A stretch of 64,000 nucleotides of DNA, taken from NCBI RefSeq assembly GCF_030704535.1, contig NC_081808.1:17792501-17856500 (forward strand). Reading direction: 5' to 3'. Every line of letters begins with the position of its first letter. Positions within the stretch are counted from its first letter, which is position 1. This DNA is from Vitis vinifera (taxonomy: Eukaryota; Streptophyta; Magnoliopsida; Vitales; Vitaceae). The position numbers were made by a program, and so were the translations under genes. Below the pieces are notes generated by a model. It had not been told where the DNA came from and did no database searches. It saw only the letters and a program-made list of their open reading frames with translations. Shown piece after piece: positions 18,534-63,669 of the stretch.

Positions 18534-18590
18534 GATGGTATGGGAAGTGGGAAAAATGAGAAAAGAAAAATTAGCAGTGAAGGAGAAGCT

Positions 18591-20044: not shown

Positions 20045-20049
20045 ATGAT

Positions 20050-20811: not shown

Positions 20812-20850
<39 letters not shown>

Positions 20851-22246: not shown

Positions 22247-22426
22247 GAATCATGCTAAAGTGAGCAAAACAATCAAGTGATCATCCAAGGCAATCAAACA
22301 TGTTAAGATTGCAAACCAAACAAGCAAGCAAATCGAATCACCTTGCCTAAAAAACAGAGGTATCCACTAATCGACCAATTAAACGCCACATTTTCCTCAA
22401 CTAGTGTTCAAGCTTGATCCTCAAAA

Positions 22427-22444
22427 TCCCCAATGGAGTCGCCA
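22427..22444 (-). other. Primer binding site of the Tat/Ogre-like LTR
   Basis: The minus strand reads TGGCGACTCCATTGGGGA, three bases beyond the LTR end GGGTCCACA at 22448. It resembles the tRNA-Arg-type primer site described for Ogre elements; the tRNA identity was not checked. Confidence 0.65.
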
Positions 22445-23779
22445 ATTTGTGGACCCGCATTTTTCACGTGTGTCCCCACTCAATCGGCGAGACTCGCTTT
22501 TTATTTGTAAAAAAATAATTTTTGGAAAAGTCGGAGTCGCCACTTATTTTATTTTTATTTTAAAGGGAAAATAAAACAAGAAATAAAACCCTAAAAAAAA
22601 TGACTCCATGATTTTTGGAAAAGCGTGTCTTTGAAAAACCTGAGTCTAAGTCCGGAGATCAGGTTACTTATTGGGAAGGTACCTCTAGGAGGTAGCACCC
22701 CTCTAAGCCCTAAAGAGGTCTCTACTGACTAAATTGGAGGTAATGTGGCAATTAATTGATTAATTGGGGATACCTAGATAGACTAAGGTGATTTCAAAAA
22801 ATGACATGTCAAATAGGATCAAATTACCATAAAAGAGAGTTAGGGTGCGTACCTGGACGGCTTCTCAAGCGCTATCATAAAACATCAATGGTTAATTCAG
22901 AAATATGACACACGACATGCATTTTATCAAGGATGATCAAACAAGCATCGAGACAATCAAGTATGGCATCAAACAAAGGCAATGACATGCATATTCATGA
23001 AATTTTGGGAACGTACCTGGATAGCATATATAACTCCTAATGCGCTTCCTCAGGACATGGGGGTTAGATAATAAATAATAAATAATAAATCCTAGCATGC
23101 TTATCTAATTAATTAGCAAAAATTATCAGAATACAGAATAATTAATTATCATATATATCTTGTATACAATTCCTAAAAATAAAAATGTAAATATGATTAC
23201 AATAAATAGTAGGGTGGTAGCAAAAATAAATTTTGAAAAGATTTTCTTATGTAGGGGTTTCACCAATTCCCCAAATTAATATACACGAATTTAGCCTAAA
23301 ATTGTCCCATTTATTTGGGACCACAAGCTTTGATTCGTGTCTTGTTTAAAACCAAAATTTTTGTTGAAAATTGAGAAGGATGCAAACCGATTAAGATATG
23401 GTTGCATGTTATTTTTAAATGGAAAAGAGATTTTTATTCTAGAGGCTTTAAATGAATTTTAAAAAAAAATTCTTAAAAGGGTTTTTTTTTTTTTGAGAAA
23501 AAGAGTTTTGTTTTAAAATAAAGGAAATTAATTTTTAAAATAACAAAAATAGAAAACAAAATATCAATCAAAACAAAAGGAAACAAAGATCACGAAATAA
23601 ATATTTTAGGAAATCTTGTCAATTAAAGTGGTGAGAGTAAAGGCGTTGCCTTCATGGATTTCTAGTGGCCCTAAAAAAAATTTGACCAACAATCACTAAG
23701 GCAACAAATTTATGACTTCCTAATCAAACAAACTAACAAAATTATCATCCAAAAACTAACATTTAGATTTCAAGAAACA

Positions 23780-25443: not shown

Positions 25444-25447
<4 letters not shown>

Positions 25448-25533
<86 letters not shown>
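25448..25533. repeat. (TA)n microsatellite
   Basis: About 85 bp of uninterrupted TA. The equivalent position in the left arm (20818-20845) has fewer than 30 bp. Confidence 0.98.
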
Positions 25534-25540
<7 letters not shown>

Positions 25541-28449: not shown

Positions 28450-29372
28450 ATGAAGAGTCAACTCCAAGAACAAGTTATCGGAATCCCAGTCAGCTGCCAA
28501 TATGATAAGCCATCTCTTTCAAATGGCTCTAGGGCAATCATCCAAAGTAAAACCCTCTCTCTATCTCTTTTCACTCTGCGTATCAGTTGTTAGTTATAGA
28601 AGACTTTAAAATGGAAGTTATTTTGCTAATGGGCTTGTCTTGAAATTGCAGAAAAATGGGATTCCACAAATTACAGGATCAACAAAAACAGGAAGAAGGC
28701 AGACAATTTTGTGGATGGAGTCCGAGAGCATGGTGAGTTGCTAACTGTTACTTTTTTGCTACAGTTACGATTAAAAATCATTAACATTCTGATTTTAACA
28801 TTCATTTGTGAAACTACAGTGAGACTAGGGCCTAAGTTCTCTGAAACGGTGAAGGGAAAGTTGAGCTTGGGGGCTAGGATTCTTCAAGTTGGAGGAGTGA
28901 AGAGAGTTTTCAAGCAAATTTTTGGTGTTGAAGGAGAGAAGCTATTGAAGGCTTCCCAATGCTACTTATCAACAACAGGAGGCCCTATAGCTGGTCTCCT
29001 CTTTATCTCTTCTCAGAGGATTGCCTTTTGCAGTGATAGATCAATCAAATTCTCTTCTCCAAATGGTGAATTGATTAGGATCCATTACAAGGTGGGCTAC
29101 TCACATAAATCTCTCTAGGTCAACTGATCTCCCTCTCCTTGTTTGCTAACATCTAAGTAAATTCATTTTCTTTTGTGCAGGTCTCTATCCCACTGAGAAA
29201 GATAAAAAGAGCCAACCAAAGTGAGAATGTGAAAAATCCATCTCAGAAGTACATGGAAATCGTTACTGTGGATAACTTTGACTTCTGGTTTATGGGATTC
29301 TTGAATTACCAGAAAGCTTTCAGCTATCTCCAACAGGCACTCCATGAAGCGCAGAATCTGGTTGAGAAGTGA
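28450..29372 (+). CDS. GEM-like GRAM-domain protein B (4 exons, 213 aa)
   Basis: Exons 28450-28546, 28652-28732, 28820-29091 and 29181-29372 give 642 nt open throughout, with GT-AG introns. It is the closest relative of gene A: exon 1 encodes MKSQLQEQVIGIPVSC, exon 2 ends in DNFVDGVREH, exon 3 carries VRLGPKFSETVKGKLSLGAR and the GRAM core ASQCYLSTTGGPIAGLLF, and exon 4 has SIPLRKIKRAN and DNFDFWFMGFLNYQ. One residue is missing near GVEGEK relative to A. GRAM/GEM-like proteins are membrane-lipid-binding regulators linked to ABA and epidermal patterning in Arabidopsis. The gene looks functional. Its distal upstream region has been interrupted by the palindromic LTR about 2.1 kb upstream of the ATG. 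Confidence 0.94.
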
Positions 29373-30557
29373 TTCAAAGTTTCTTCCCCCCAGCTTCTAC
29401 AAATGTATTTACATGAACCTGATAAGGATCTGTACAGTCAGAGGCTTTGTACAAATTTTTTGCTAAGGAGAAATTGACCTCCAATTTTTCAACCATATTT
29501 TCTATTCAGTGCATGGAACAAGTTCTTCCAAAGTGACTATTGTTTTAGTACTATAGTAGCTATGCTATCACATAAACCCCAGCTCTTTATGTTGTGTCTG
29601 TTGTATTATATGATGTATGACACATTCCATTGCTTCTTGTCAAATGTGTTCTGGTGTAGTATGAAGACATAATACCTGAGGAAACAGATTAACAACAGCT
29701 TTTGTTGAGTTACAGGAATTGAATGAATCTCTGAGTTCCAAAACCATATACAGAGTGATATCCAACCTCAAGTATTTTTGCAGAAGCTTTTACTAGGACA
29801 AATAGGCTTACTTTCTTCTATAAGATCTTGAGTTAGACCACCTTTGGTGAATCAAACCAGGTAATCTGTCTTGTGATGAGGAAGCCTTCACTTTAGCCAG
29901 CTTCTGCAGTTCCTTTTTGGCAATCCCATTTCTAAGAAACTTGAGACACCAATTGATACCCTCATACAAGCCTATGGAATTCATTGGTCTTGGAAACATA
30001 TTGTTGAGTTTTATGTGAATTAAACTACCTCATCATTGTACTCAGCTCCATACTTTTATGAACAGATTAAGCACATTGAATTATAATTTCATCGGTAAAA
30101 CAATACATCGAGTTTCCAAAGTCCATTAAATTATAATATCTGAAAATTCTATGACTTCCAATGCCTAAGGTAGCTGTTAGCACCATCTTATGATTCAAAT
30201 CCATTGAATGATAGAAGCTGATGCATGCATTCCCTTCTCTCCATATTTTAATGAGAAAACTCCCACTGATGGTTGTCATAATGTGGCTAAGATGGTTATT
30301 CTATGTAGCTGGTGTTGGGCTGCAACAATCTTGTTTTTAAGGCCAGGATGAATCATCCAAATAATGACTCTTAGAACAAGCTTACTTAGCATGATATCAA
30401 AAGATTCGACCTACTCTCACTTAACTTTCACAAGAGATGGTAAAAGGCCGATTCAAGAATTGGTATCTAGTAGGAAAAATTTTTAAATTATTTTTTTTTT
30501 AATTCCTACTTCAATTCTTGATAACGTGGAGTTTCAGGGATAAAGAACTCAGAACTT
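29373..30557. other. Intergenic, 3' flank of gene B and start of the next duplication unit
   Basis: The minus-strand frames at 29808-29999 and 30067-30279 are short and unassigned. From about 30170 the sequence resembles 36280-36370 (ATATTTTAAT, CCCACTG, GTTGTCATAATG stretches). Confidence 0.45.
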
Positions 30558-34281: not shown

Positions 34282-35232
34282 ATGAAGAACCAACTTGCAG
34301 GACAGATCATTGGAATCCCAGTTAGCCGCCAAAATGAGAATCCCTCTTCCTCAAATACATCTCTGGCATTAACTCATAGTAAGATTCTCTCTCTATCAAG
34401 CATACTCAGCCACTCTTTTCTACTTTTCATATCAGCTACGGTTCTACAGAACTTCAATGGAAGTCCTTTGGCTAATGGGGTTGTCTTTAAAATTTCAGGT
34501 AAGGTGGACAGAAAGAAGAAAATGATGAACAGACATGAGAAAAAGGCCTATAATTTTGTACAGGGAATCAGAGAGCATGGTATATACTTGTTTCATCTTT
34601 CATTCAACCTTATCCTCCAGGATTAAATAGTATGATGACAATATACAATAAAACCTAAATTTGGTTTATTTTACATGAAACTGCAGTGAGATTAGGGCCT
34701 AAGATCTCTGAAACTGTGAAGGGGAAGTTGAGCTTAGGGGCTAGAATTCTTCAACTAGGGGGAGTGAAGAGAGTTTTCAAGCAAATTTTTGGTGTTGAAG
34801 AAGGAGAGAAGCTATTGAAGGCTTCTCAATGCTATTTATCAACAACAGCAGGTCCTCTAGCTGGCCTCCTCTTTATCTCTACTCAAAGGGTTGCCTTTTG
34901 CAGTGAGAGATCAATCAAATTCTTTTCTCCAAATGGTGAATTGGTTAGATTTCATTACAAGGTGGGTTACTCACTTAACTCTTTCTCTAGATCTCTCACT
35001 TCCTATTTCTCCATCTCCATGTTTTCTATCATCTAAGAGGAAATCTTGCTTTGTGCAGGTCTCAATCCCACTGAGAAAGGTAAAGAGAGTAGACCCAAGT
35101 GAGAATGTGAAAAACCCATCTCAGAAGTACATGGAAATAGTCACTCTGGATAATTTTGACTTCTGGTTTATGGGGTTCTTGAATTACCAGAAATCTTTCA
35201 ACTGTCTCCAACAGGCACTGTCTCAATCTTGA
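34282..35232 (+). CDS. GEM-like GRAM-domain protein C (4 exons, 208 aa)
   Basis: Exons 34282-34378, 34499-34579, 34687-34961 and 35059-35232 sum to 627 nt without a stop; the introns are GT-AG. The exon sizes 97, 81 and 275 equal those of gene A, and the last exon is shorter (ends in SQS). Exon 2 diverges (KVDRKKKMMNRHEKKAYNFV), while exon 3 keeps VRLGPKISETVKGKLSLGAR and ASQCYLSTTAGPLAGLLF, and exon 4 keeps DNFDFWFMGFLNYQ. It is expected to be a membrane-associated GRAM regulator like its paralogues. The sequence groups with gene D in exon 1 (MKNQL or MKNQV start, NENPSSSN) and in the last exon. Confidence 0.94.
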
Positions 35233-36280
35233 ATGAGTTACAAACCAAACCAGAAGTGATTCAAGTAGAATGGTTTTCCTCTCTGCTTCATTAGGTGTAT
35301 TTACATGCAGCAAAAATCTGCACAGCCCGAAACTCTGTATAAAGTATTTATTAATGAAATTTGATCTCCTATTCTTCAACTATTGTTAAAGTTAGAATGA
35401 GCTCCACCGAAGTTGTTGATGTTTTATAAGTTTTATGTATGCATTCTTACACTTAGGGTTTATCTCAAAAAATCCAAGAGAATGACTCAAGCAAAGAACA
35501 CAAAACTGACATCAATGTGACTATGTTAGTTCAGTCAGAGCTTAAGTAGTACACAACTTTCTAGCATCCATGAGTCAATTGAGTTTTCTCTTGGCATATT
35601 TAAAGGTCTACTGTTGTCAAAAACTGTCACGACCCATGTATGTATTGTCTACCCCATTGGCTCTCACGACTTTCAAACACAAGCCATGTAAATATTACTC
35701 TGGATCAATCTCATGACTTTAAAATATAAATCACGTAAATATTGTTTACTTTAAACACACTAGTTTTGGGACTTCAAAACTTGAGCTTATTAGGAAATAT
35801 CTATTATTGTGAGGGTATCACATTCATCTTCCTTCTCTTAAGGAGTATCAATCACAATGAATTATCACATTCACCTGCACATGAGGAGTCATGGCCGTAG
35901 GGAATACCAGCCCCCCAAGTGGACACTTCTAGATGGGAAGTAGCTATACCACTATGAATATTGTCTACCTTTGGTTCACTAACGTAGTTTAAAATACATT
36001 CAAACAAACCAGCTGGGTCTGACTCTTATAATTGTTAGACACTTCTCCCCAAATAGCGTGAGATGTCATTCTTTAAGACTATTTTAACTGAATCTGAATA
36101 GAAATCCCCCCATTGCATTCCTAACATTGACATGCAACTTAAGGGGGAGTAATAGTTTATATGGCATGTTACAAATACAGGTCAAGTAGTTGAATTTAAA
36201 TCATCAGTGGAAACATAACGTCTTGCAGAACCTTCAATAAAAGGAGATGCTCTTGTCCCCTTCACTCATTTTGTTCATAG
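35233..36280. other. Intergenic, no gene recognised
   Basis: 3' flank of gene C followed by unique AT-rich sequence. No coding potential was supported. Confidence 0.5.
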
Positions 36281-39755: not shown

Positions 39756-40877
39756 TCAAGATTGAGACATTAATGCCTTTTGGAGACAGTTGAAAGCTTT
39801 CTGATAATTCAAGAACCCCATAAACCAGAACTCAAAATCATCAGCAGTGACTACTCCCATGTACTTCTGAGATGGATTTTTCATATTCTCACTTTGGTCT
39901 ACTCTCTTTATCTTTCTCAGTGGGATTGAAACCTGAAAAAAGGAAAAAAAAAAAAAAAAACTTTAGATAAATGTTAACAAAGAATAGATATATATAAAGA
40001 AAGATAGTTATGTGAGTAACCAAACCTTGTAATAGATTCTAACCAATTCACTATTTGGAGAAGAGAATTTGATGGATCTCTCACTGCCAAAGGCAACCCT
40101 CTGAGTAGCGAGAAAGAGGAGGCCTGCTATGGGGCCTGTTGTTGTTGATAAATAGCATTGAGAAGCCTTCAACAGATTCTCTCCTTCCGTAACCCCAAAA
40201 AGTTGCTTAAAAATTCTCTTCATGCCTCCTTGTTGAAGAATCCTTGCCCCCAAGCTCAGCTTTCCCTTCACAGTTTCAAAGATCCTAGGTGCCAATCTTA
40301 CTGCACTTCCAGAAAAAAGTTTATAAGAAAAAAAAAAAAAAAAAGATCAATTAATTATTACTAGAATGTTGTTCCATAGAAGTAATTCTTATGATTCAAT
40401 ATATATATTCTCTTGTTTACTTCAAACTCCCACCAGCCAAACAAGCCAAACAAATACATAAACTACATGTCAGACCTATATCTATATAGGAAGTAAGAGT
40501 CCCAGGAGATATGCATGCCTCAATTCTCAGTCAAGACATGCTTTTATGTTTTGGAAATTGACATGAAGAATAAGAGAAGGTTAAGTACTTGCCATGTTCT
40601 CTGATTCCATGCACAATGTTATCACCCTTTTTCCCATGTTGGTTCATCATATTCTTCATCCTATCCACTTCATCTGCAATTTTGAAGACAACCCCATTAG
40701 CAAAAGGACTGCAATTTTGAAGTGTTAAGTAGAAAGTAGTTATATGGGCATGTGGTTGAAAGAGAGAATCTTAATCTTACTATGATTTAATGGCAGAGAT
40801 GGATTTGAAGAAGAGGGATTCTCATTTGGGAAGCTGATTGGGATTCCAATGACCTGTCCAGCAACTTGGTTCTTCAT
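39756..40877 (-). CDS. GEM-like GRAM-domain protein D (4 exons, 209 aa), with a GC-AG intron
   Basis: Minus-strand exons 40877-40781, 40673-40593, 40300-40026 and 39932-39756 give 630 nt open throughout. Exon sizes 97, 81 and 275 match genes A and C. Intron 2 starts GCAAGT (40592-40591 are GC) instead of GT, with an otherwise consensus donor and a normal AG acceptor. Exon 3 reads VRLAPRIFETVKGKLSLGAR and ASQCYLSTTTGPIAGLLF; exon 4 has SIPLRKIKRVDQSENMK, DDFEFWFMGFLNYQ and ends MSQS. It is the only inverted member of the cluster. GRAM/GEM-like membrane-associated regulator by family; expression and role are not known. Confidence 0.93.
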
Positions 40878-43709: not shown

Positions 43710-43947
43710 TATAGAAGAAATAACACTGCTATTTTCAATGAAATTTTTCACACACTTTTATTGATGTAATAAGAGCTGACTTATATACATAGCTAGGAAA
43801 AACTATTTACGGCAATGTACATTAATTTTTCTACAACTACGTAGCAGTTACAGATTTGTTAAAGTCAACAGATCAAACAATGATTACAAGAATATACAAA
43901 ATTGATTTTGAATGTTCTTGCTTGATTGTAGGCTATCTGTTCAATCA
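43710..43947 (-). repeat. 3' LTR of the older copia element
   Basis: Pairs with 48295-48532, about 94 percent identical by eye. Ends in TATA on the side next to 43710. Confidence 0.9.
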
Positions 43948-44029
43948 TTGCCTTGATCCTTGCAGTCTGTTTTTATACGCGCCCGCAAGATTGAGCTTCC
44001 ATCAGCAAGCCCAATCTTGTATCTCAACA

Positions 44030-47000
44030 TTTTGATTTTTTGTCTTGACAATGGTTTTGTCAACAAATCAACCAATTGGTCTTATGTATGAACATGTCGA
44101 ACTTGGAGAGAACCACGTTGAACTAGATCACGAACAAAATGGAGATCAATTTGTATGTGTTTCATGTGTGAATGTTGGACTGGATTGAAACTTAGATACG
44201 TAGCACCAAGGTTATCACAGAGTAATAAGGGAGCTATTTTTAGTGGAAAACCTAGCTTGTGAAGAAGTCCAAGAAGTCACATTGTCTCGGATGTCGCATT
44301 TGCAAGAGCTCAATATTCAGCTTTGGTGGTAGATCTTGCAACTGATCTTTGTTTCTTTAAGCTCCATGAAATGGGATTTGGGCCTAAGAAGCTAATATAG
44401 GCAGATGTGGAGGTTCGATCATCAATATTTCCTGCTTAATCGGCATTGGAATAGGTGATTAAAGCTAGAAGTCCAGATTTTGTGAGTTGTATACCATGGA
44501 AGATGGTTTGCTTTAAGTACCAAAGAAGCCTTTTTGTTGCTGTGAAGTGAGTGGTGGTAGGCTTGTGCATGAATTGGGACAACTTGTTGACCGCGAATGA
44601 AATATTTGGATGCGTTAAAGAAAGATACTGAAGGCTGCCAATGATTCTTCAAAATTCAATGTTGTCCACATTTGTTGTGTCATCAAGTAATTTGAGAGAT
44701 TGAGTTGTTGAAAGAGGAGTTGAGACATCTTTGGCACCACTCATGTTGGTATTTGATAGTAACTCTTGAATGTACTTGTGTTGTGAGAGAAATAGTCCTC
44801 TTTGAGTAGGTACAACTTCCACACCAAGAAAAAAATGAAGTAGACCCATATCCTTAAGAGAGAAACGATCTCTCAATTGCTTGATAATTGAAGCCACAAA
44901 ATTTTTGTTATTTCCTGTAATCACAATATCATCGACATACACTAAGAAATAACGGATTATAGAGTCCTTTCGATAAATAAACAAAGACGAATCAGCTCTG
45001 GAATTATCAAACCCAAGCTCAAGCAGTACATTTTTCAATGTAGTGTACCAAGCCCTAGAAGCTTGTTTGAGGCCATATATTGCCTTTTTGAGCCTTCAAA
45101 CATGATTGGGTTTAGATGGATCTTTGAAGCCCGGGGGTTGCATCATATATACAGTCTCAAATAATGCACCATGTAGGCATTATTAACATCCATTTGCCTT
45201 AAATCCCAACCATTCACAACGATAATAGACAAAATGGTTCTAAGGGTGGCTGGTTTAACTACTAGACTGAAGGTCTCTTTGTAATCAAGGTCTGGACATT
45301 GATTATAACCCTTTGCAACTAAGCGGGCTTTGAATCAATCCACTAATCCATCAGGTTTTCTTTTGACCCTAAACACCCACTCGCAGCCCACTGGGTTACA
45401 GTTCAAAGGGATTGGCACTAAATCCCAAGTTCCATGCTTCATGAGAGTTGTAAGCTCACTAGACATAGCATCATGCCACTATGGTTGAGATAAGGCCTGA
45501 CTCACACAGGTTGGTTCGATGGTCTCAGGGAGTGGATGTTTAGACATAGAATTGAGTTGTTTGGGTTTAAAAAATTTGTTCATTGACCGAGTGGTCATTT
45601 GGTGAAGACGTTGAACAAGTGGGTTTTGGGAATTTTCAGTATGTCCTATTGTTTGCTCAACAAGTGAGAAGTAAGAAAGCAATGAGTTTGAATCAAGCAA
45701 ACAAGTATTGGAACTAGAACTTAGAGATGAAGAATTCAAGTGCAAGGAATTTTGACCTAAATTTTCAAATGAAATGATAAGAGAAGAAGAAAGAGGGTTG
45801 AAGAGATTACCTAAGGAGGATGCGTCGATGGCGGCTACACCTTTCAAAGTCGTTGATGCGAGCAGGGGGGCAGATGGCATTGGCAAGGGCACTAGCGTGA
45901 CCTAGGCATCAGGGAATAGAGGGGCATTGTGAGATTCTGGTGTTTGGATTTTTGGTTTGGTATAATACAGAGTGGGAGTGTTTGGTTCGTCGAATAGAAC
46001 ATGCCTAGAAATGTAAATCTTATGAGTTTTAAGGTTAAGACATTTGTAGTCACTTTGGGTTTGAGAGTACCCAATAAACACACAAAGTGAGGATTTTTGC
46101 TGCATTTTATGAGTGTTATAGGGTCGGGTAAGTGGGTAACAGAGACACCCAAATTTTCTTAATTTGAGGTAATTTGGTTTTTGACCAAAGAGAGCTTCAA
46201 AAGGAGAACGATTTTGAAGAAGAGAAGTAGGTTGCCTATTGATTAGATAGGATGTTGTTTGGAAAAGCATGAGGCCAATATGAAAAAGGTAGTGATGTAT
46301 CATGGAGAAGAGTGAGACCCGTTTCAACAAGATGACAATGACGACGCTCGGAGACACCATTTTGTTGCGAAGTGTGTGGGGCGGTGGTATAGTGACCAAT
46401 ACCATTAACCAATAAAAAGGATTTTAAAGGAATGAATTCCCCACCATTATCAGAGTACAAATTTTTTATTTTGGTTTGGAAGCGTGTTTCTACAAGTTTT
46501 TTGAAATGAGGAAAAATTGTAGACACCCCGGATTTTGTAGCCATTGGATAGAACCACATGTATTTTGTGAAGTGGTCAACCAAAATGAGGTAATAATGAG
46601 ATTCGTCGATACCGGTATAATGTGCAGGTCCCCAAACATCAGTATAAATAAGTCCAAGTGGTGCATGACTTTGAAGACTATTGGTATGAAAAGGTTGTTA
46701 ATGTGCTTTATTAATTGAGCATGAACTACATAATCAAGAAAGATTTTTTTCTTTGACACAGGAAGATAAAGATTTTTTTCTTTGACAACGGGAAGAGAAA
46801 AATTCTTAACAAGATGTTGGACTATTCAAAGAGATGGATGCCCAAGACGCTTGTTCCACCCATCAATTGAGGTCCATTCATGCACATTAGCAACCATTTT
46901 GGAAATGGGAGACATCATTGATTCCGGAAAAATGTACACACTATTTTCACATGCTCCTCGAAGTAGAATCGCCCCCGTTATCTTATCATTCACAAAGAAA

Positions 47001-48250
47001 TGAAAATGGTGAAATTCAACAACAACATTATTTTGTTTGGTAAGATGATGAATGAAAATTAAATTTTTGGAAAGGTTTGGAACACAAAAGGTATCACTCA
47101 AGATGAAAGTGCGGTTGGGTGCGTGTGATTCCAAAGAACCAATGTGTGAGATAGTTAAACCTGAACCATCACCAAGAATTACTTCATCGGTACCATCATA
47201 TTCATTGTGAATGGACAAATTTGCAAGATCACCCATTATATTGTGAGGGGTCGCTGAGTCCATGAGCCAAGTTTTGTCTTTTCCGTTAGAAGAGGTTACG
47301 CAGTTGACTGTGAAATCTTTGGACTGGAGTTTAGGACAATGCTTTACGGTATGGCCCATTTGTTCACAAAACTGACAACGTAGCGTGTAACGTTTCTGGT
47401 TGTTATTGGGTTTGCCAGACCCATAGTTGGAGCGACGTCCATCATGTTGGTGGCCATTGGATTGGCGGGCTGAGCTTTGGCCTTGATTACGTTGAGACCC
47501 ATTCGGTTTATAAGACTTCTTTGAGAAGTCACCTCCAGATGAAGGTTGGCCTTTGTTTGTGAAGTTTACTGTCACCACCATCTATTGAGTAGCAACTTCC
47601 AGACGCCAAAGGTAGGATCCGTGACCCTTTAAGAGGTCGTGTTGCTCTTCAAACACCAAGGACTTCTCCCATGCTCAGATAAGTGCAGCAATCTCACTAA
47701 AATTAGGCCCTAACCCATTCAAGACATATAGGGTTAAATCATCATTAGAAATTGGATGATCGATGATGGCGATTTCATCCACCAGAGCCTTCATAGGATG
47801 CAAAAAGTCAAAAATTGACCTATTTCCACGTTGAATCAAGGTGAGTTTCTCCCTGAGTTACATAACCCTTGTTCTTGAACGACTAGCATATAAAGTGTTA
47901 AGTTTATTCCAAGCCTCGTGTGATGTTTTTGTTGTGGCTATGAGCAGTGTGATTGTGGGGGATGTAGAGGCTAGGATGGCACTAAGGATAAGTTTATCAT
48001 GTCGAACCCAATGAGTTTTGTTGAGATCGGTAGTTGAAGTGCCAATGGGAGAAGGCCAAGAAGATATGCCATTGACATAGTCAAGCAAATCATAGCCAAT
48101 AAGGAGTGCTTCGAATTGAGCACGCCATTGAGGAAAAGTGGAAGGTGTTAACTTTTCATTGATTTGGGCAGTGATATTGAGGTCAATAAGTTGTTTATCA
48201 GTGCCGGAAATGGGATGGGTATTGAGTGGGATGGATTCTGAGGAGGAGGA
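44030..48250 (-). pseudogene. copia gag-pol polyprotein, heavily degraded
   Basis: Fragments in order on the minus strand: gag (48295-47858, FPQWRAQFEALLIGYDLLDY), zinc knuckle CQFCEQMGHTVKHC and a protease region (47581-46826, DSATPHNI), integrase (46583-45902, YSDNGGEF and HTSQQNGVSERRH), linker (45892-45479), RT (45038-44649, YVDDIVITG, LHFFLGVEV) and RNase H remnants to about 44030. Multiple stops and frameshifts separate these pieces. It belongs to the same broad copia group as the 14-19 kb element. Confidence 0.92.
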
Positions 48251-48294
48251 TATATTTGGGATCAGATGCTCTTGAGAGAATAGCTCTGATACCA

Positions 48295-48532
48295 TATAGA
48301 AGAAATAACACTGCCGTTTTCAATGAAATTTTTCACACACTTTTATTAATGTAATAAGAGCTTACTTATATACATAGCTAGGAAAAACTATTTACGGCAA
48401 TGTACATCAATTTGTCTACAACTATGCAGCAGTTACAAATTTGTTAAAGTCAATATAGCAAACAACGGTTACAAGAATATACAAAATTGATTTTGAATGA
48501 TCTTGCTTGATTGTAGGCTATCTGTTCAATCA
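48295..48532 (-). repeat. 5' LTR of the older copia element
   Basis: Partner of 43710-43947. Starts TGATTGAACAG on the minus strand. Confidence 0.9.
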
Positions 48533-49690: not shown

Positions 49691-49912
49691 TTATCTAAAA
49701 TTAAAGGGTAAAAGTGTCTTTCTCTTGATGAGCATTCTCGTCTTAACGATAAAACTGAAAATTGCGCGGGCATTTTCTCCTATTAACAGCTTTCAAAACC
49801 GTTAACGTTCTCTTTACTTCTCTTCTTGATTCTCCTTGCTTCCCGAAATCTGAACCAGAGGAATAAACCCTAAACCTAGCAATTGAGATTTTTTGCGGAG
49901 CACGGAGAGAAG
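49690..49912 (+). promoter_or_regulatory. Conserved upstream region and 5' UTR of kelch-like gene 1
   Basis: Shares with 62070-62283 the words AAAAGTGTCTTT, GAAAATTGCGC, GGCATTT, CAAAACCGTTAACGTTC and GAACCAGA. A telo-box AAACCCTAAA lies at 49865-49874 and a GCGCGGGCA (E2F-like) word at about 49765. Function is inferred from conservation between paralogues only. Confidence 0.5.
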
Positions 49913-50989
49913 ATGGAAGGCGAAGGTGTGCTGCTGATAGCGACCAAACAACGTCTGCTTGTCGTCGACTTGACGAAGTTGCAAAACCTTGACTCCACAG
50001 ATACCGAATTTCCGGCAGCGCCGCTATCGGCCGTGGAAGTGTTCAATTTCGTGGAGAAGGGGTTTCCCTTTGGAGCGAGTTTTTTTATGCGGGAATCCAA
50101 ACTGTACATGGTCGGCGGTGAAAAAACTCGCGCCGGATTATCACAAGAAGAGCTTTGTACTCCATCCAGCGCCAATCTTGATGAATCGTTTGGGGAAAGA
50201 GGACTTTCTCCGTATATCTACTTTTCGGATCTCACGACGCTGGATTCCATCACCCAATTCTGCGAGCACACTCTCACCATGCTTGCGCCAAAGACCAGCC
50301 CCATTATCGAAGAGATTGAAGGCAAGATTTACGCGCTCTCGGGTCCTTCTTGCCACTATGAAGATTTCTTGCCGGCCCCCGCGTTTGAGGTTTATGATCC
50401 ATCACTTGACCTATTGGAGGCCCTGCCTCTTCCTCTCTTCTACCAGGAAAATAGTTATGATGGCTCTGATAATATTATACGTGACTACTCTGTTGTGGGA
50501 ACCACCATTTATGTGCGGGCTGGTGACAATTATTATTCTTACAGCGTCAATGACAGAAAATGGGATTTTCTAGGGAATTCAGAGCATGAAATACCCGTCC
50601 AGGCACCTTTGCTGCCTGGTATTAATGGCAAGTTTGTGCCTGCTTACAAAGACATCCTCATCTGCTTTTCTCTCCATGCCCTGTCTGCATTGATGCTCCC
50701 TCAAGATGGGGGTCCTCCTTTAATTCAGTTTTTGCATGAGGTGTACGAAGATCGTCTTGATATGCATTCATGGAGGGAAGTGGGAGCGGTTGTTGCAATA
50801 GGTGAGCATGCGATGTGCGTCATCAGGCCTAAAGTAGTAGAAATTGAAAATGTCATCCTCCACCGCATTTATGTGGCCACTTTTCGTGTGGAGAAACTGA
50901 ATTCCTCATCTCCAGCTCCCAAGCTAGCCAAGACTGCTTCTAACTCCCAAACTTCTGATCATGATAGTGGTAATTGTCATTATAGATAG
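49913..50989 (+). CDS. Kelch-like beta-propeller protein 1 (358 aa, C-terminal tail lost)
   Basis: Starts MEGEGVLLIATKQRLLVVDL. The frame also stays open upstream to a TTG at 49883, but the ATG at 49913 aligns with the ATGs of both paralogues. The body has kelch-type blades: FPFGASFFMRESKLYMVGG, KIYALSGPS, AFEVYDPSLD and YYSYSVNDRKWDF. It ends DSGNCHYR at a TAG. The conserved tail of the paralogues (SVTCLSKGFYNLPEWG then SAFFHRW) is still readable at 51133-51225 in another frame, behind several stops, and has no stop codon of its own at the equivalent place. This is either a truncated gene or one that needs an unusual splice. No F-box is visible, and the molecular role is unknown. Confidence 0.85.
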   Translation: MEGEGVLLIATKQRLLVVDLTKLQNLDSTDTEFPAAPLSAVEVFNFVEKGFPFGASFFMRESKLYMVGGEKTRAGLSQEELCTPSSANLDESFGERGLSPYIYFSDLTTLDSITQFCEHTLTMLAPKTSPIIEEIEGKIYALSGPSCHYEDFLPAPAFEVYDPSLDLLEALPLPLFYQENSYDGSDNIIRDYSVVGTTIYVRAGDNYYSYSVNDRKWDFLGNSEHEIPVQAPLLPGINGKFVPAYKDILICFSLHALSALMLPQDGGPPLIQFLHEVYEDRLDMHSWREVGAVVAIGEHAMCVIRPKVVEIENVILHRIYVATFRVEKLNSSSPAPKLAKTASNSQTSDHDSGNCHYR

Positions 50990-56171: not shown

Positions 56172-57122
56172 ATATTTGTGGACCCCGTATTTCGGCTTAA
56201 TGCGTTTCCCACTCGATGGCGAGCTCGATTTTTATTTGAAAAATTGATTTTTATTGATTAAGAAAATGACTTGGAGTCGCCACTTATTTTTGTTTTATTT
56301 TTAAAGGGTAAACAAAATAAAAAAGAAAAACCCTAAGTGTGATTCCTTGTTTTGGAAAAAGTTGGTCTACGAAAAACCGGATCAGGTTCGGGGGTCAGGT
56401 TACTTATCGGGAAGGTACGGTAAAGACCATAGCACCCCTCTAAGTCCCTAAAGTCGGGTCTCTACTAATAAAATGAAGCTGACATGATAATCAATGAGAA
56501 AGTCAATGAATACTCAAATTGATCATGCACGTATGAAAATAAAAGCATGCATAGAAAATAATCAGAATGAGAATGAGTGCGTACATGGACCTCCAGTGAC
56601 AAATGCGCTATCATGAAGCAGGATCAGTGAACAATGAATATATACATATACTTATACGCATGTCAAGGAACAGAATAAATCAAACACGCATGACAAATAA
56701 ATCAACCAAATGGTCAATCAATCACGAGATCATATATGTGGGGCTCCCACCAAAGCCCGTTTATTTTTGCATGAATTAATTCCATAAATTCCATTATTTG
56801 GAATTACGGAATTTAAATTCTTGCTTATTTTAAAACATTTTAAAAGATCATGAAAGATTTGAAAATTGCTTGCCGAATAGAAAGTGGAAGCAAATTTTAT
56901 TAAAAGTGAGACTCTTGGGTGATCCTAAAAATTCTAAGGATGAAAGATGAGAAAATTGGGATTATTTGAAAATCAGAATTAGAGAAAGATATTTACAAAA
57001 ATGGGATTTAAGAAATCATTTAAAGAAACAAAGGTGATGGAACAGTAGGTGGCATGTGGTCCAGAGGTGACCATGCATGCCATGCAAGAGTGGGTCCCAC
57101 GGTCTGATTTTACCTTACTCAC

Positions 57123-57250
57123 CTTTTGACGCATCCAGTCCACGTCGGGGATGTTAAGACCATGAGCAACAATATCAGTACATAACAAGATGGCTTTCTC
57201 GACTTTACAGAAATCAAAGAAGGTGAAGGTCTGCTTCTGCTCAGAAGGTG
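57123..57250 (-). pseudogene. Captured fragment of a DEAD-box RNA helicase
   Basis: The minus strand reads FFDFCKVEKAILLCTDIVAH then GLNIPDVDW. This matches helicase motifs around LLCTDVAARGLDIP of plant DEAD-box proteins of the RH51/RH27 (DDX18-like) type. The highly conserved ARGLDIP is altered to AHGLNIP, so the fragment is no longer constrained. Similarity stops at AAAAG|GTGAGT, which looks like a splice donor, so this piece may retain the start of an intron. About 42 codons. Confidence 0.75.
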
Positions 57251-57339
57251 GCCATGCAGAGAAGATCCCATTTTGGCCCACTTTTAAGGAGTGTTCTTTC
57301 TCTTATTTCCTTTCTTAGTACAGCAAGCCTGATTTGAGA

Positions 57340-57545
57340 AAAACTGAGTCAAGTTCCAGATTTAGGGCCTCTCAGCAATCCTTGATTTGATCTATTCTGG
57401 GTTCGACAAAAGATCTTCCCTCTGCATCTCAATCTCTCTTTCCTTGCTCACAATCTCCTTGGGAACATCTTCTGTAACAAGAGATTGCACTTGAAGACAG
57501 GCAACAGCTTGCATGGCCAGGTCATCAATTAGCTTCATTTCCTGT
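57340..57545 (-). pseudogene. Captured fragment of plastid elongation factor Ts
   Basis: The minus strand reads [40 protein letters not shown] and EDLLSNPE followed by a stop at 57392-57394. The similarity carries on as IKSRIAE. This corresponds to the EF-Ts segment DDLAMQVAA...EDVP.EI..KEREI...PE.IRSKIVEGR. About 60 codons are readable without an intron. EF-Ts recycles EF-Tu during translation; this piece is not a gene. Confidence 0.75.
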
Positions 57546-57689
57546 CTCTCAATTAGCATCTTCAGCAGCTTTCAAGTGTAGAGTCTCCTTTCCAACCTCA
57601 CCCTGGTCTCCTGAGTTCCATTGCTTCTTGCATCACTCGCCTCGCTTTACAGCAAGTCCTGTACTGCCGCTGGAGCCCATGCTAAACTG

Positions 57690-58195
57690 GTTATGGATGG
57701 CTTAATGTAGTTGCTGCCGAAGATGAGATGAGTGAAGGGCCCCTAAGTTAAATCCATCAGGCCGTCCCATAGGAAAATGCTGAAATTGCATCATAGACAC
57801 AGCGCTATCACAAAGTTATTCTTTCCGGTGAGGGTCCATAGGAAAATCAGTATTTCTACCCTTAAATCCTGGTAATACAAGAAAATCTTCATTCTGGATA
57901 CTGAATTCTCAGTTTTGATGGACAACTCCAATGCTTCGCTTCCACAGAGAACCCAACTATCCTTGAAAGCTACCAGCAGAATTAAGGTGAGCGGTCAGTT
58001 GGGGAAAATCATCTGTGTCAAAAGGAACATTCTCATGGACACTCAAATCCTTTAATGATGCCATGGAATTTGAATGATTATTCACTGCTTGGACCTGGTT
58101 TTGAGATCGTAGCCCTCCCACAGAAGAATAAGAATTTCTAGATATAAATGTCACCTAGTGAAAGAACGCCACCCATTAATCTGCTAGTTTCTTGT
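57690..58195 (-). pseudogene. Captured fragment of CCR4-NOT subunit NOT2/VIP2
   Basis: The minus strand reads SRNSYSSVGGLRSQNQVQAV, NNHSNSMASL, PFDTDDFPQL, then after a stop LGSLWKRSIG and EFSIQNEDFLVLPGFKG, then after another shift AVSMMQFQHFPMGRPDGFN. All align in order with the N-terminal half of plant NOT2 (VIP2), a CCR4-NOT transcription and mRNA-decay subunit. About 160-190 codons are present with no intron visible but several stops and frameshifts. Confidence 0.85.
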
Positions 58196-58207
58196 GTACC
58201 CACATTC

Positions 58208-58864
58208 CCATATTCATTTTGAATTGATATCCGGAGAAAATGTTAACTCAATTGGTAACATAACTTCCTCAACAGTCTTCTCAGTCAAACCGAGAGCCCC
58301 ACTTACATTTGTTGTCTCATCATGAGTGAATTCACCTACTTTGCTGGCCTCTTGGCCATGGATGGAGACAAGTGCTTTCAATTGAGCCCGTCTGAATAAT
58401 GCTTCATTATGACCAAGTACCAAGTCTAGGATCTTCCCAATTGGATGGCAAGTCATCATTAAAATACGGACTAGCAATATAAAATTTGCACCTTCAGAAA
58501 GTCCAAATCTGCTACACATTGCTTATGGAATAACCTCTCCAAAAGCTAAGACGAAAGTAACAGAAGGTACAATAGTAGCAAATGGATTGAAAAGCTCATC
58601 CAGGTATAATGGGAGGGCCTCTATGGGACGCAACATTGCAAAGAAACTGAGCCATAAGGATCGGATGCTGCTTTTGAACAACTAGAGAGATAGCAGCCAC
58701 TTGCTTCTTCTTGTCAAAAATGCCACTGTGCTGAAGAGTCTCAAAATCGACGCAGCCGGGAGACATGAAACCTAGGTGTGACCAGTCATAATACTGATGA
58801 AGGGGACAAGGAAACGACAGATCCCGACGTAGGTGAAGAACCACAAGGACCCGAAGGCGATGTC
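58208..58864 (-). pseudogene. Captured fragment of a DUF21 (CNNM-type) membrane protein
   Basis: The minus strand starts DIAFGSLWFFTYVGICRFLV, passes a stop, and continues in order: LGFMSPGCVDFETLQHSGIF, DKKKQVAAISLVVQKQHP, then after a frameshift an EALPLYLDELFNPF-like stretch, SVTFVLAFGEVIP, CSRFGLSEGANFILLVRILM, PIGKILDLVLGHNEALFRRA and QLKALVSIHGQE...THDETTNVSGAL. This covers the DUF21 transmembrane domain and the start of the CBS region of plant DUF21 proteins (metal-transporter-like). About 215 codons show no intron. Two or more stops and a frameshift make it non-functional. Confidence 0.88.
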
Positions 58865-58869
58865 ACCTC

Positions 58870-60149
58870 TGCAAAGGGATTCAACACCGAGATTTCTCGT
58901 TTCCAAGACGCAGAGTGAAGTCCAATTTAGGAGACGAATTCAGGCAGCCCTAGCAGGAGCCCACGACTTTCAGACAAGCTGATGGTATCTTCTGGGGTCA
59001 CTCTATCAGCACGTGGAACCTTCTTAGTCAAGGATGCTACTGCTACTGCCAATTTAGCTCCGCTTCTTGGCCGTGGCTCTGGACCTTTGGCTGAACTTCA
59101 AAACGTCACTGACAAGACTGAAGCTGCCGCATCACTTAGATGTTCTCGTGATCAGTTCTCCTCTTAGATGACAACCAAACTTTGAGAATATGTATCCCTT
59201 GTAAGGATTCACAACTAGCCTTGATTTCTCTCTCTCACACAGCCAATGTATTGAGCGAGATCCAAAAGCAAAAGGCAATCACCACAGAGAAAGAAACAAT
59301 AGAAACAGAGCATAAAAAAAAAAGACAAAGTAAAAACATCCTCAAATGAGGCTTCACTGCATGAGTCATCAGCAAGCCCTCTGATTAAGTGAGAAAAACC
59401 ACATCAAATATGACTATTGGCATGATTCCTAGGTATTTCGCAATAGAGGCAAGGTGCATTAAGATCAACAATGGCAAACATGAGTTCAAGATTATATCAA
59501 CAAGCAACAAGTGGCCTTCATCAATCCACCCCAAGCAAACCAACAAATATCCAGATATCAACAAGAAATGCAGAGGGATAGTCAGGATCCAAAATAAAAC
59601 AATGTACCTGCTGCATTCATACCTGAGAGTGCCCTTCTCCGGTAAGGTTCTGTTCAGCTTCAAACACCTCAAAAGCCATGAAAAACCTCCCTCTGCAGTT
59701 TGCTCTCTCAGCCAAAAAATTTCTCCTCCAAAGTCTCCCTGAAAAAAAAACCCCTCCGTAGCAGCTTGCTCCTTGCCTTCTCCAAAAATCCTCTCTGTTT
59801 TCTCTCTAGTCTTTTTCCCCCGGAAAAGCATCACCCTCTGCCCTCTGTAACAGAAACGCTCCATATCTCTCCACAAACACGTCCCAAAAGCAACTCTTTC
59901 CTGCAGCCGCAAGCCTCCACTACCCCCATGCAGCTGGCAGCCTCTGCTCCTCTAACCTCCATGCAGCTGGCAGTCCTCAAAAATATCTCATAACTGAAGA
60001 ATCACTTTACAGGTGTCACCACCTGGTTTGCCTCTCAAATCCACTACTTGATCCTTCAGCAGCCTGTCAAGAGGCACCACGCGGCCTCCTAAAGTTGCTC
60101 CACCTGGCAAAATTTGCTACAACAATTACCCCCAAAGTGGGGGTCTACA
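58870..60149 (-). other. 5' portion (U3 side) of the solo LTR, unassigned sequence
   Basis: Contains an antisense open frame at 58982-59167 and a sense frame at 59912-59385, neither recognised. A duplicated CATGCAGCTGGCAG word is near 59928 and 59960. Further captured pieces may be present but cannot be named from reading alone. Confidence 0.4.
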
Positions 60150-60154
60150 ATATT

Positions 60155-60684
60155 TCATTTTCTTTGATGAGAAAAAACTTTACAAATAAAAAAAAGATTA
60201 AATTTGAATAGAAAATAAATATATGGTTTGTTTTATTTAAAGAATTTATTGATAACATTTAATTTCTAAAGTAACTTTCTATTTACTGGCCTCTTTTTTC
60301 TCATATCGATTCAATTGTTTAACTTGAAAAATTGGATATATAATTTAAAAATTAGTAAAAATAAATAAATTGTAATAAAAAATAAATATATTATTCCTTT
60401 TATATTTTGAAAAAAAAATTGAGTCATAATATTTAATTTCTATATTTGTTGCACTCTTTTAAAAAGATTTGAAGAATCTAATTTGTTTTATCATTTTTTA
60501 TTAAGAAAATAAATAAAAATAAAATTCAAGTAAATTAAATCCTATCTTATTTAGGGCAAAAGTGTATTTTCCTTAATGGGCATTCTCCTTTTAATAAAGA
60601 AACTGAAATTTGCGCCATCGTGTTCTCACAAAACCGTTCACGAACCAGAAGAAGCTGAGATTTTGTGCAGAGCAGAAGGAGAAG
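60155..60684 (+). promoter_or_regulatory. Upstream region and 5' UTR of kelch-like gene 2
   Basis: From about 60440 it resembles 49560-49912: TTATTAAGAA, AAAATTCAAGTAAATTAAAT, GGGCATTCTC, AAACTGAAA(T/A)TTGCGC, AAAACCGTT. It lacks the telo-box of gene 1. The solo LTR ends about 530 bp upstream of the ATG. Confidence 0.5.
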
Positions 60685-61836
60685 ATGCAAGGCGGAGGCG
60701 TGCTGTTGATAGCGACCCAACAACGTCTGCTGGCCATCGACGTGACGAAGTTGGGAATCAGTCGCTACTCACATGCTAAATTTCCGCCGCTACCGGTCGT
60801 GAAAGTGTTCAATTTCGTGGAGGAGGGATATTCCTTTGGAGCGAGCTTTTTCAAGTGGGAATCCAAACTATATATGGTGGGCGGCGAAACAACACGCTCG
60901 GGAGCATCAAAAGAAGAGCATTGTAGGCCAGTCGGCTCCAGCTTTGATTTGGATTCTAGGGTAAGCAAGCCTTCCCGTGATATCTTCGTTTCAAATCTCA
61001 CCACGCTCGACTCCATCTCCGAATTCCGTAATCATTCTGTCACCATGAGTACTGAAAAGCCTAGTCCCATTCTTGCAGAATTTGAAGGTAAGATTTACGT
61101 GCTTTCTGGTCCTTCTAGGCGCTGTGACTATTCCTTGGAGACCCCCACGTTTGAGGTTTATGATTCCTCCCTTGGCCAGATGGAGCCCCTGCCTGATCCT
61201 CCCTTCTACATTAATAATAATTACAATTCATATTATTGCGTCGTAGCTCGCTGCTCCGTTGTGGGATCCTCCATTTTCATGTTGGTTGGTGGCCATTATT
61301 ATCGTTACCGCATCCAAGACAAGAAATGGGATGAAAGAAAATATGCAATGGATAATATACCCGTCCAGATACCCATGCTTCCTGGTTTTGGTGGCCAGTT
61401 GGTGCCTGGTTACGGTGACATTTTCATCTGCTTTCGGTTCAATTCCTTGATTGCAGTCATGCTCCGTTCTGATGGGGGTCGTCCTTTCCAGTATATAAAT
61501 GAGGTTTTTGATCCTTGTTACCGTCCTGATTCATTTTCTTATAATGGACTAGTTGTCTCGATGGGTGACCATGAGATGTGCATAGTAAAGCCTGCCACAG
61601 CAGAAGCTAGAAACAGAGACCGCAGTGTTGTTTATGTGGCCACTTTTCGTGTCGAGAAACTATATTCCTCACCACCTGCCTGCAACAGTGATGATTCAGA
61701 ACAACCACAACCACAACCACCAACCCCACGACCCTTCGTGTCTATTACTTGCCTGAGCAAAGGTTTTTATGACTTGGAAACATGGGGCCGCGAAACACCT
61801 AAAATTTCCGGTGCCTTCTTCCATCGATGGGAATGA
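60685..61836 (+). CDS. Kelch-like beta-propeller protein 2 (383 aa)
   Basis: Intronless frame from ATG 60685 (MQGGGVLLIATQQRLLAIDV) to TGA at 61834-61836. The frame is open further upstream, but the Met was chosen by alignment with the two paralogues. Blade motifs: YSFGASFFKWESKLYMVGG, GKIYVLSGPSRR, PTFEVYDSSLGQMEPLPDPP, YRYRIQDKKWD, FGGQLVPGYGDIFICFRF, and MGDHEMCIVKP near the end of the propeller. A short PQPQPPTPRP linker leads to the conserved tail VSITCLSKGFYDLETWG and GAFFHRWE. I read it as a kelch or galactose-oxidase-like propeller without an F-box. Partner and function are unknown. Confidence 0.92.
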   Translation: MQGGGVLLIATQQRLLAIDVTKLGISRYSHAKFPPLPVVKVFNFVEEGYSFGASFFKWESKLYMVGGETTRSGASKEEHCRPVGSSFDLDSRVSKPSRDIFVSNLTTLDSISEFRNHSVTMSTEKPSPILAEFEGKIYVLSGPSRRCDYSLETPTFEVYDSSLGQMEPLPDPPFYINNNYNSYYCVVARCSVVGSSIFMLVGGHYYRYRIQDKKWDERKYAMDNIPVQIPMLPGFGGQLVPGYGDIFICFRFNSLIAVMLRSDGGRPFQYINEVFDPCYRPDSFSYNGLVVSMGDHEMCIVKPATAEARNRDRSVVYVATFRVEKLYSSPPACNSDDSEQPQPQPPTPRPFVSITCLSKGFYDLETWGRETPKISGAFFHRWE

Positions 61837-62283
61837 AGGACGGTTTGTCTCTCTCTCATACATATTTCTATATGCATCTATACATTTGTTCATCTAGTTA
61901 TATTCATTCTAAGAAAGCCAAAGATTAAGAAATTTGATTTCCGAAGGGTGACTATTATGGTTGAGAAGTTCTAAGGTCTTGGAGATACACAAATCATTCT
62001 GTTTAGAACGCTATTCATCCTATGGGAAGAGCAAAAAATTCTACAAATACTTCGTCAAATAAATATAAAAGTAGGGATAAAAGTGTCTTTTCATTAATGG
62101 CCATTCCCGTATAAACAAAATGAAAATTGCGCTGGCATTTGCTCCGATTAGCAGCTCTCAAAACCGTTAACGTTCGGTTATCTTTGCGATCCTTCTCGAT
62201 CCTTTTTGCTTCCTCGAAATCCGAACCAGAAGAATAAATCCTAACCCTAGAAATTGAGATTTTGTGCAGAGGAGAGAGGGAAG
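61837..62283 (+). promoter_or_regulatory. Spacer and promoter between kelch-like genes 2 and 3
   Basis: 447 bp. From about 62070 it repeats the words found upstream of gene 1 (AAAAGTGTCTTTT, GAAAATTGCGCTGGCATTT, CAAAACCGTTAACGTTC). The telo-box position reads AAATCCTAACCCTAG. Confidence 0.5.
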
Positions 62284-63669
62284 ATGGGAGGCAACGACGT
62301 GCTGTTGATAGCTACCCGACTACGTCTGCTCGCCGTCGACGTGACGAAGCTGAAAATCCTTCACTACTCATATACCGAATTTACGGCACCGACATTGCCG
62401 GTTGTGCAAGTGTTCGATTTCGTGGACGGGGGTTATTCCTTTGGAGCGAGATTTTTCATGTGGGGTTCCAAACTTTATATGGCCGGCGGTGAAAGAACTC
62501 GCTGGGATGCATCACAAGAAGAGCTCAGAAGGCCACTCGGCGCCGGCTTTCCTTTGGAATCTAGGGCAAGCAAGCGTTCCCCACTTATCTTCGTTTCAGA
62601 TTTCACCACGCCCGATTCCATCTCCAAATTCAGTAGAGCTAATTTCAGGATGATAACAGAAAAGCCTAGTCCCATTATAGTAGAGTTTGGAGGTAAGCTT
62701 TACGTGCTGTCTGGACCTTCTTGGCACTATAACCATCCCTTGGAGTCCCCCACGTTTGAGGTTTATGATCCGTCTCTCGACGAATTTGAGCCCCTGCCCG
62801 ATCCTCCCTTCTACATTGATAATAATTTCAATTCATATGATTGTGCCGTGGCTGGCTACTGTCTTGTGAAATCCTCCATTTACATGTTGGTTGGAAACCG
62901 TTGTTATTGTTACCGCATCCAAGACAATCAATGGGATGCTGATGGAACTTCAATGGATGAAATAGGTGTCCACAGATATGCGTTGCCTTGTTTTAGTGGG
63001 CAGTTTGTGCCTGGTTACAATGACATTTTCATTTGCTTTCGTTTCCATTCCCTGATTGCCATCATGCTCCGTGATGACGGTGGTCATTCATTTCAGTATA
63101 TAGATGATGAGGTTTTTGACCCTTATTACCACCCTGATTCATTTTCTTATAAAGGACTAGTTGTTGCCATGGGTGGGCATGGGATGTGCATCCTAAAGCC
63201 TGCCATGGCAAAAGTGGGAAACACAAACCGTTGTGTTCTTTATGTGGCCACTTTTCATGTCAAGAAATTGGATTCCTCGGTCGATGACGCCAAACGAGCC
63301 TTGACTAGTGCGGAAAGTTCCATAGCTCCTACCTCTAAGATAGCCAAGATGGTTACTGATTCTGATATCGGAACTTCTCATCATCATCGCGGTAATCATC
63401 ATTCCAGTCATTCTGGTTATCATAATATAGATCATTCATTGTATTTAATTAAAGAATTTTATGTTGAAGATGTTAGAGAGAGTGATGATTCAGCATCTCT
63501 CCAAGAGAGTGATCCACCGCCACCACCCCAAGAAAGTGATCCACAACCACCATCAACCCCACGACCCTTCGTGTCTATTACTTGTTTGAGCAAAGGTTTC
63601 TATAACCTCGAAACATGGGGCCCTGAAATACCTTACATTACCAGCGCATTCTTCCATCGATGGGAGTGA
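62284..63669 (+). CDS. Kelch-like beta-propeller protein 3 (461 aa)
   Basis: Intronless, ATG 62284 (MGGNDVLLIATRLRLLAVDV) to TGA 63667-63669. The propeller closely parallels protein 2: YSFGARFFMWGSKLYMAGG, KLYVLSGPSWHY, PTFEVYDPSLDEFEPLPDPP, YCYRIQDNQWDADG, FVPGYNDIFICFRFHS and MGGHGMCILKP. Between the propeller and the tail it has about 80 extra residues: a His-rich patch (HHHRGNHHSSHSGYHN) and a Pro-rich repeat of ESDPPPPPQESDPQPP type. It ends with the conserved tail VSITCLSKGFYNLETWG and SAFFHRWE. The His-rich patch might bind metal ions, but that is speculation. Function unknown. Confidence 0.92.
   Translation: MGGNDVLLIATRLRLLAVDVTKLKILHYSYTEFTAPTLPVVQVFDFVDGGYSFGARFFMWGSKLYMAGGERTRWDASQEELRRPLGAGFPLESRASKRSPLIFVSDFTTPDSISKFSRANFRMITEKPSPIIVEFGGKLYVLSGPSWHYNHPLESPTFEVYDPSLDEFEPLPDPPFYIDNNFNSYDCAVAGYCLVKSSIYMLVGNRCYCYRIQDNQWDADGTSMDEIGVHRYALPCFSGQFVPGYNDIFICFRFHSLIAIMLRDDGGHSFQYIDDEVFDPYYHPDSFSYKGLVVAMGGHGMCILKPAMAKVGNTNRCVLYVATFHVKKLDSSVDDAKRALTSAESSIAPTSKIAKMVTDSDIGTSHHHRGNHHSSHSGYHNIDHSLYLIKEFYVEDVRESDDSASLQESDPPPPPQESDPQPPSTPRPFVSITCLSKGFYNLETWGPEIPYITSAFFHRWE

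Follow-up and report, generated by a model that had tools for sequence, protein, structure and literature searches.

How do pieces of several host genes come to lie head to tail, on one strand, inside what looks like a single long terminal repeat (LTR)? The question is raised by a locus of Vitis vinifera (assembly GCF_030704535.1, contig NC_081808.1), which we analysed in a window of 64,000 nucleotides (positions 17,792,501 to 17,856,500 of the forward strand). A 3973-bp unit in this window (56177-60149) carries on its minus strand fragments of a CNNM/DUF21 protein, NOT2, EF-Ts and a HAS1/DDX18-type helicase, in this order. We read the unit as a solo LTR, left by a retrotransposon with long LTRs, in which complementary DNAs (cDNAs) of spliced host messenger RNAs (mRNAs) are joined between LTR segments, and give this reading a probability of roughly 60%. 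A preliminary description of the locus had already recorded the TG...CA unit, its perfect ATATT duplication and the four gene pieces in the same order on the sense strand of an LTR; all of these were recovered, EF-Ts weakly.

The plus strand of the unit starts with TG and ends with CA, and a perfect ATATT target-site duplication (TSD) is present on both flanks. The two ends are near-inverted, with 9 of 12 bases identical, and no inverted repeat of at least 20 nt was found in the unit. A repeat search of the unit alone returned no terminal direct repeat; its sole repeat family is diffuse and comprises four 29-nt copies, three of which are 66-72% identical to the reference copy. Since there is no terminal direct repeat and self-BLAST of the unit gives the self match only, a small element with short LTRs of its own can be dismissed. 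Database searches with other scopes were negative: Rfam gave 0 matches at gathering scores over the whole window, the exact LTR motif had 0 matches each in the viral contig and genome contig collections, and a literature search with the motif TGGCGACTC retrieved nothing relevant. A 33-bp unit is repeated about 1.9 times within the 5' segment of the LTR (59915-59978).

The orientation of the unit follows from a related LTR end elsewhere in the window. The first 444 bases of the unit (56177-56620) align by blastn with 22448-22884 (E=5e-48), and 321 of the 464 alignment columns are identical (69%). Ahead of TGTGGACCC at 22448 lies, on the minus strand and 3 bases from the LTR end, TGGCGACTCCATTGGGGA, an 18-nt sequence that starts with TGG, as primer-binding sites (PBS) do, and that presumably fits a PBS for tRNA-Arg. 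Because this LTR end adjoins a PBS-like sequence, the unit has its U5 end at 56177 and is read in sense on the minus strand; the earlier description of the gene pieces as sense was correct. Three copies of the 9-base core of the PBS-like string are present in the window, at 22436 beside the related LTR and at 22534 and 56274. At the latter two sites GAGTCGCCA, a part of the PBS-like sequence, is found inside both LTR ends at a shared place, about 90-100 bp inward, and these internal copies are possibly a duplicated PBS remnant. The retrotransposon piece with the related LTR end and the PBS-like sequence (22427-22884) occupies the centre of a long inverted-repeat element (20045-26323), the arms of which are about 95% complementary and contain 102-bp tandem units. 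The long LTR, the 5-bp TSD and the PBS, which we take to be tRNA-Arg-like, are only a lead towards membership in the Tat/Ogre lineage of Ty3/gypsy elements, since the unit comprises no internal region. That lineage is defined by reverse transcriptase phylogeny, and its aRH domain is located between the ribonuclease H (RH) and integrase (INT) domains (PMC6317226).

All four cargo fragments are on the sense strand. In a frameshift-aware alignment of the CNNM fragment with the Vitis protein P0001, 173 of 244 codons are identical (71%), with two stops, two frameshifts and one 4-residue gap; the alignment score is 781, compared with at most 36 in five mononucleotide shuffles. The first ~20-35 nt of this alignment overlap LTR sequence that is common to a second family member described below, and the part from residues ~8-13 to 247 is trusted. 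A protein stitched from minus-strand open reading frames (ORFs) matches Pfam CNNM with 29.0 bits (cut-off 28.4), and the best protein matches of the fragment are from Vitis rotundifolia and V. vinifera. The NOT2 fragment shares 130 of 171 codons (76%) with P0121, a protein with the NOT2_3_5_C domain, and contains three stops and one frameshift (score 605, at most 33 in shuffled sequences). P0121 is the nearest protein found, not necessarily the donor, in a search that was limited to lengths of 0.55-1.75 of the query and returned two proteins. The helicase fragment has HAS1 as its first phmmer match and DDX18 as the next, and it matches Pfam Helicase_C with E=3.8e-4 and 21.1 bits, under the cut-off of 23.5. 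The match to EF-Ts is the weakest of the four (Pfam EF_TS, E=5.5e-4, 20 bits, below the curated cut-off of 27; NCBIfam tsf, E=0.0067; PDB, E=0.92). Two of the lengths given in the preliminary description need revision: the CNNM piece is longer (249 residues aligned instead of ~215) and the EF-Ts domain match is shorter (43 residues instead of ~60).

On the plus strand, no credible Pfam match was obtained for the 23 scanned ORFs among the 38 of at least 30 amino acids that touch the unit; the sole match there is BNR_assoc_N (E=0.031, under the cut-off). A PDB search of the stretches 59097-58927 and ~57646-57510 gave no match up to E=5. On the reading favoured here, at least three and probably four spliced host mRNAs contributed to the cargo, one behind the other and all in sense.

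Between CNNM and NOT2 there is a direct join without a spacer, as their alignments share 20 nt (58224 to 58205). Intervals of ~140-170 bp separate NOT2 from EF-Ts and EF-Ts from the helicase fragment. The earlier observation that the CNNM and NOT2 pieces lack introns is borne out over 249 aligned residues in 735 bp and over 171 aligned codons, respectively. In soybean, DUF21 genes are described as having 8-15 exons (PMC7846513), and a survey of DUF21/MGR genes in wheat gives 11 exons for one subgroup (PMC12651028). Under a toy model with uniform intron placement, a stretch of 249 out of 480 codons would be free of introns with a probability of 0.006 if the gene has 8 exons and 0.0007 if it has 11. 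Taken together, the intron-free CNNM stretch and the many exons of the soybean genes favour spliced mRNA as the likely origin of the cargo, with exon counts that are those of DUF21 genes in soybean and wheat rather than of the grape donors. A comparison of 119 CNNM proteins with P0001, made for exon borders, yielded no proof of an intron inside the matched part; gaps or inserts of at least 6 residues within the first 255 residues of P0001 were seen in 5 of the 119. One protein, P0025, departs from P0001 after residue 247, near the end of the fragment, which suggests an exon border at this place.

Table 1. Features of the unit and of the related LTR end (window coordinates).
Feature	Position	Strand	Remarks
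Whole unit, read as solo LTR	56177..60149	- (5' end at 60149)	TG..CA; ATATT TSD; without terminal direct repeat
TSD copy 1, ATATT	56172..56176		
TSD copy 2, ATATT	60150..60154		
LTR 5' segment (U3-like), 1231 bp	58919..60149	-	ORFs submitted: no Pfam match over cut-off; last ~105 bp common to P0123
Stretch common to P0123 residues 6-40	58918..59022	-	tblastn, 32/35 residues (91.4%), E=1.8e-13; ends where the CNNM piece begins
CNNM/DUF21 fragment	58205..58939	-	against residues 1-249 of Vitis P0001; true extent ~58213-58918
NOT2 fragment	57711..58224	-	against P0121 residues 200-373
ORF with EF-Ts fragment	57392..57571	-	domain match ~57416-57544, 43 residues
Helicase fragment, HAS1/DDX18 type, 40 codons	57126..57245	-	phmmer against PDB, E=9.2e-11 (HAS1)
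Splice-donor-like AAG/GTGAGT	57117..57125	-	directly after the helicase match; pattern scan, only occurrence in the unit
LTR 3' segment (R/U5-like)	56177..57125	-	56177-56620 homologous to LTR end 22448-22884
Stretch matched by P0123 residues 369-412	56451..56583	-	two colinear tblastn pieces, E=5.4e-5
Related LTR end (22448-22884), then PBS-like TGGCGACTCCATTGGGGA (22444-22427)	22427..22884	-	inside another repeat; source of orientation

An apparent second member of the LTR family is a gene model of Vitis piasezkii. When the query was restricted to sequence of the unit not covered by the named gene matches, a single protein was returned among 7997 scored candidates, the 412-residue P0123 (AAG906_035214; E=1.8e-5). 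Its left flank is firmly assigned to the LTR. The right flank is a weaker, candidate assignment based on two colinear matches, of residues 369-394 to 56583-56506 (46%) and of residues 396-412 to 56501-56451 (76%). Between the flanks, P0123 contains DXS (E=6.7e-56 to plant DXS), split into two stretches that leave out ~25 residues of the enzyme, a BTB domain above the Pfam cut-off and a match to HSP70 (E=0.0084), which is perhaps also part of its cargo. No significant match to this cargo is present in the grape unit. The common left flank stops at 58918, and the similarity to CNNM is convincing from the residues TRNLG, at ~58903; the left cargo boundary in P0123 and in the unit agrees to ~16 nt. 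Since the common flank ends where CNNM begins, the two members have almost the same LTR position as the start of their cargo, and the family seems to have acquired host mRNAs on more than one occasion. The proposal of the preliminary description, that mRNAs were captured by an LTR through template switching, is partly supported by the LTR nature of the unit, its orientation, the four sense-strand fragments (EF-Ts weakly), the intron-free pieces, the spacer-free join of CNNM and NOT2 and the second member with other cargo; template switching itself, as opposed to capture of a ready-made chimeric cDNA, we can only infer, and the multiplication of this cargo that was also proposed is a supposition.

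Several observations weigh against this interpretation. The cargo of the unit is 71-76% identical to the nearest proteins found, compared with 91% for the left flank shared by the two LTRs. The cargo therefore looks older than the split of the flanks, a poor fit to independent capture in a single step unless LTR segments recombine; exchange of such segments between elements would explain the older-looking cargo. P0123 is a predicted protein spliced by software, and a gene model joins one strand only, so that its orientation adds little. The two right-flank pieces of P0123 score 26.9 and 26.6 bits, and the best of 200 block-shuffled controls, 141 of which gave any match, reaches 26.2 bits. As to the mRNA origin, the splice-donor-like GTGAGT directly after the helicase piece raises the possibility that unspliced DNA or pre-mRNA was the source of this piece, and some wheat DUF21/MGR members of another subgroup have a simple exon-intron structure (PMC12651028), which makes a low-intron donor conceivable. 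A pattern scan found no TATA box near 58919 (the only TATAAT is at 59496), which makes this position no more than a putative U3/R border. Finally, neither a second copy of the exact CNNM-NOT2-EF-Ts-helicase cargo nor a full-length element was seen, a negative that has no search of the host genome behind it.

Alternatively, the unit might be not a solo LTR but an internally deleted element, made up of the 5' LTR head, an internal piece that carries the captured mRNAs and the 3' LTR tail; it would retain the same ends and TSD. The fragments of the maize element Bs1 reportedly lie between its LTRs. For GmaRetroS15 of soybean, too, the gene pieces are placed in the internal region (PMC4717578). 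Such an origin of the grape unit would, however, require two separate deletions, which removed the PBS and the polypurine tract (PPT), and P0123, in which the cargo is another, shares the left boundary to within ~16 nt. The unit also has no PBS of its own, as the 9-base core is located only beside the related LTR and inside the LTR ends. We consider an internal deletion unlikely, although it deserves to be kept in view. A chimeric cDNA made elsewhere, by template jumping of the long interspersed nuclear element (LINE) type or as filler at a double-strand break, and then inserted into the LTR as DNA, would equally yield joined pieces free of introns; in mouse zygotes, breaks are reported to capture spliced mRNA after its reverse transcription (PMC4516963). 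We regard this origin as distinctly improbable, as a direct repeat around the cargo was not detected (no 9-mer is shared by 58850-59050 and 57000-57300), the helicase piece, read in sense, is not followed by poly-A, and the second cargo at the same LTR position requires a second event at the same point.

Gene fragments might also have been carried into the LTR as DNA by a Helitron or a Pack-MULE. The hallmark of Pack-MULEs is a terminal inverted repeat with a TSD of ~9 bp, and no flanking 9-base direct repeat was found in the tested stretches (Helitron ends were not systematically searched). In maize, 1194 captures are ascribed to Helitrons and 462 to other DNA transposons, compared with at least 189 to LTR elements (PMC2774510). 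Pack-MULEs are described, however, as keeping exons and introns (PMC4717578), whereas the CNNM and NOT2 pieces are intron-free over 249 residues and 171 codons, and transfer by such an element is very improbable here. The imperfect inverted ends (9/12) would suit, in place of an LTR, a DNA transposon that has short inverted ends and makes 5-bp duplications. We rejected this as hardly credible: the homologous end at 22448 is followed, after 3 nt, by the 18-nt PBS-like sequence with initial TGG, and the ends are TG..CA.

If the unit is a solo LTR with mRNA-derived cargo, the following route may be proposed. During minus-strand synthesis, reverse transcriptase would leave the element RNA at R and switch through packaged host mRNAs, in turn those of the helicase, EF-Ts, NOT2 and CNNM, before it returned to the element RNA upstream. 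The helicase would come first because reverse transcriptase reads RNA from 3' to 5'. If the detour took place at the first (strong-stop) transfer, the foreign cDNA would come to lie between R and the 5' segment, and the insert would be copied into both LTRs by plus-strand synthesis, the presence of cargo in both being inferred from the solo-LTR structure. The element would then insert with a 5-bp duplication, and recombination between its LTRs would leave a solo LTR; a solo LTR with a perfect TSD fits such later recombination. In a more general form, a fixed point in the LTR of this grape family would repeatedly take up strings of spliced mRNAs at the first strand transfer, and different multi-gene cargos would be copied into both LTRs, so that the LTR acts as a retroviral-type cassette for exon shuffling. 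We offer this generalization tentatively, and it may well prove wrong.

Capture of several genes by LTR-type elements is known but rare, and the known cases concern the internal region. According to the cited accounts, the soybean terminal-repeat retrotransposon in miniature (TRIM) GmaRetroS15 is of LTR type and carries intron-free host gene pieces, like the grape unit, in its case from three genes, and the TRIMs of the same survey have 5-bp TSDs, as does the unit; in contrast to the unit, the pieces are between the LTRs, and the gene-carrying TRIMs are 1,172-1,449 bp long (PMC4717578). Maize Bs1, likewise an LTR retrotransposon, contains exon-only fragments from three host genes, but these make up a chimeric gene within the element (PMC13317346, PMC7264820, PMC4717578). 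BARE-2 shares with the unit the presence of foreign sequence in the LTR itself, acquired by abnormal template switching, but its donor is another retrotransposon (Wis-2), not host mRNAs (PMC13317346). Turmoil-1 of Caenorhabditis elegans has two gene fragments inside its terminal repeat; its repeats are inverted, and it is presented as a case of transduplication (PMC2572040). The maize B73 survey describes 425 intact LTR elements with gene fragments and at least 189 captures, but, under its conditions, no element that combines fragments from two or more standard nuclear genes (PMC2774510). In the account given by a 2026 review of gene capture in plants, the one example noted of a template switch into an LTR has another retrotransposon as donor (PMC13317346). 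A literature search at the level of titles and abstracts, with most subscription journals outside its coverage, gave no report of several host mRNAs inside an LTR among the matches listed.

If the cargo is part of the LTR, it would be doubled at every retrotransposition, and joined host exons would be set beside a promoter. Chimeric transcripts, and small RNAs directed at the donor genes, could then arise efficiently. If different cargos share a fixed boundary, sequence comparison alone could also test an old question, namely at which step of reverse transcription an element takes up host mRNAs.

The solo LTR ends ~460 bp upstream of a kelch/DUF1668-like ORF (60607-61833) and may affect its promoter; related ORFs are located at 49880-50986 and 62251-63666, which makes three of this type in the window. 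Two LTR pairs are also present. The pair at 14059-18836 is 99.6% identical, looks recent and encloses a 775-residue ORF that has gag and integrase domains of copia type, and the pair at 43710-48532 is 93.7% identical and encloses an ORF with a Pol_BBD domain. Repeated blocks at 8810-9391, 28805-29377, 34675-35255 and 40024-40318 (inverted) are probably a dispersed gene family, and one copy has an ORF with a GRAM domain (28630-29115).

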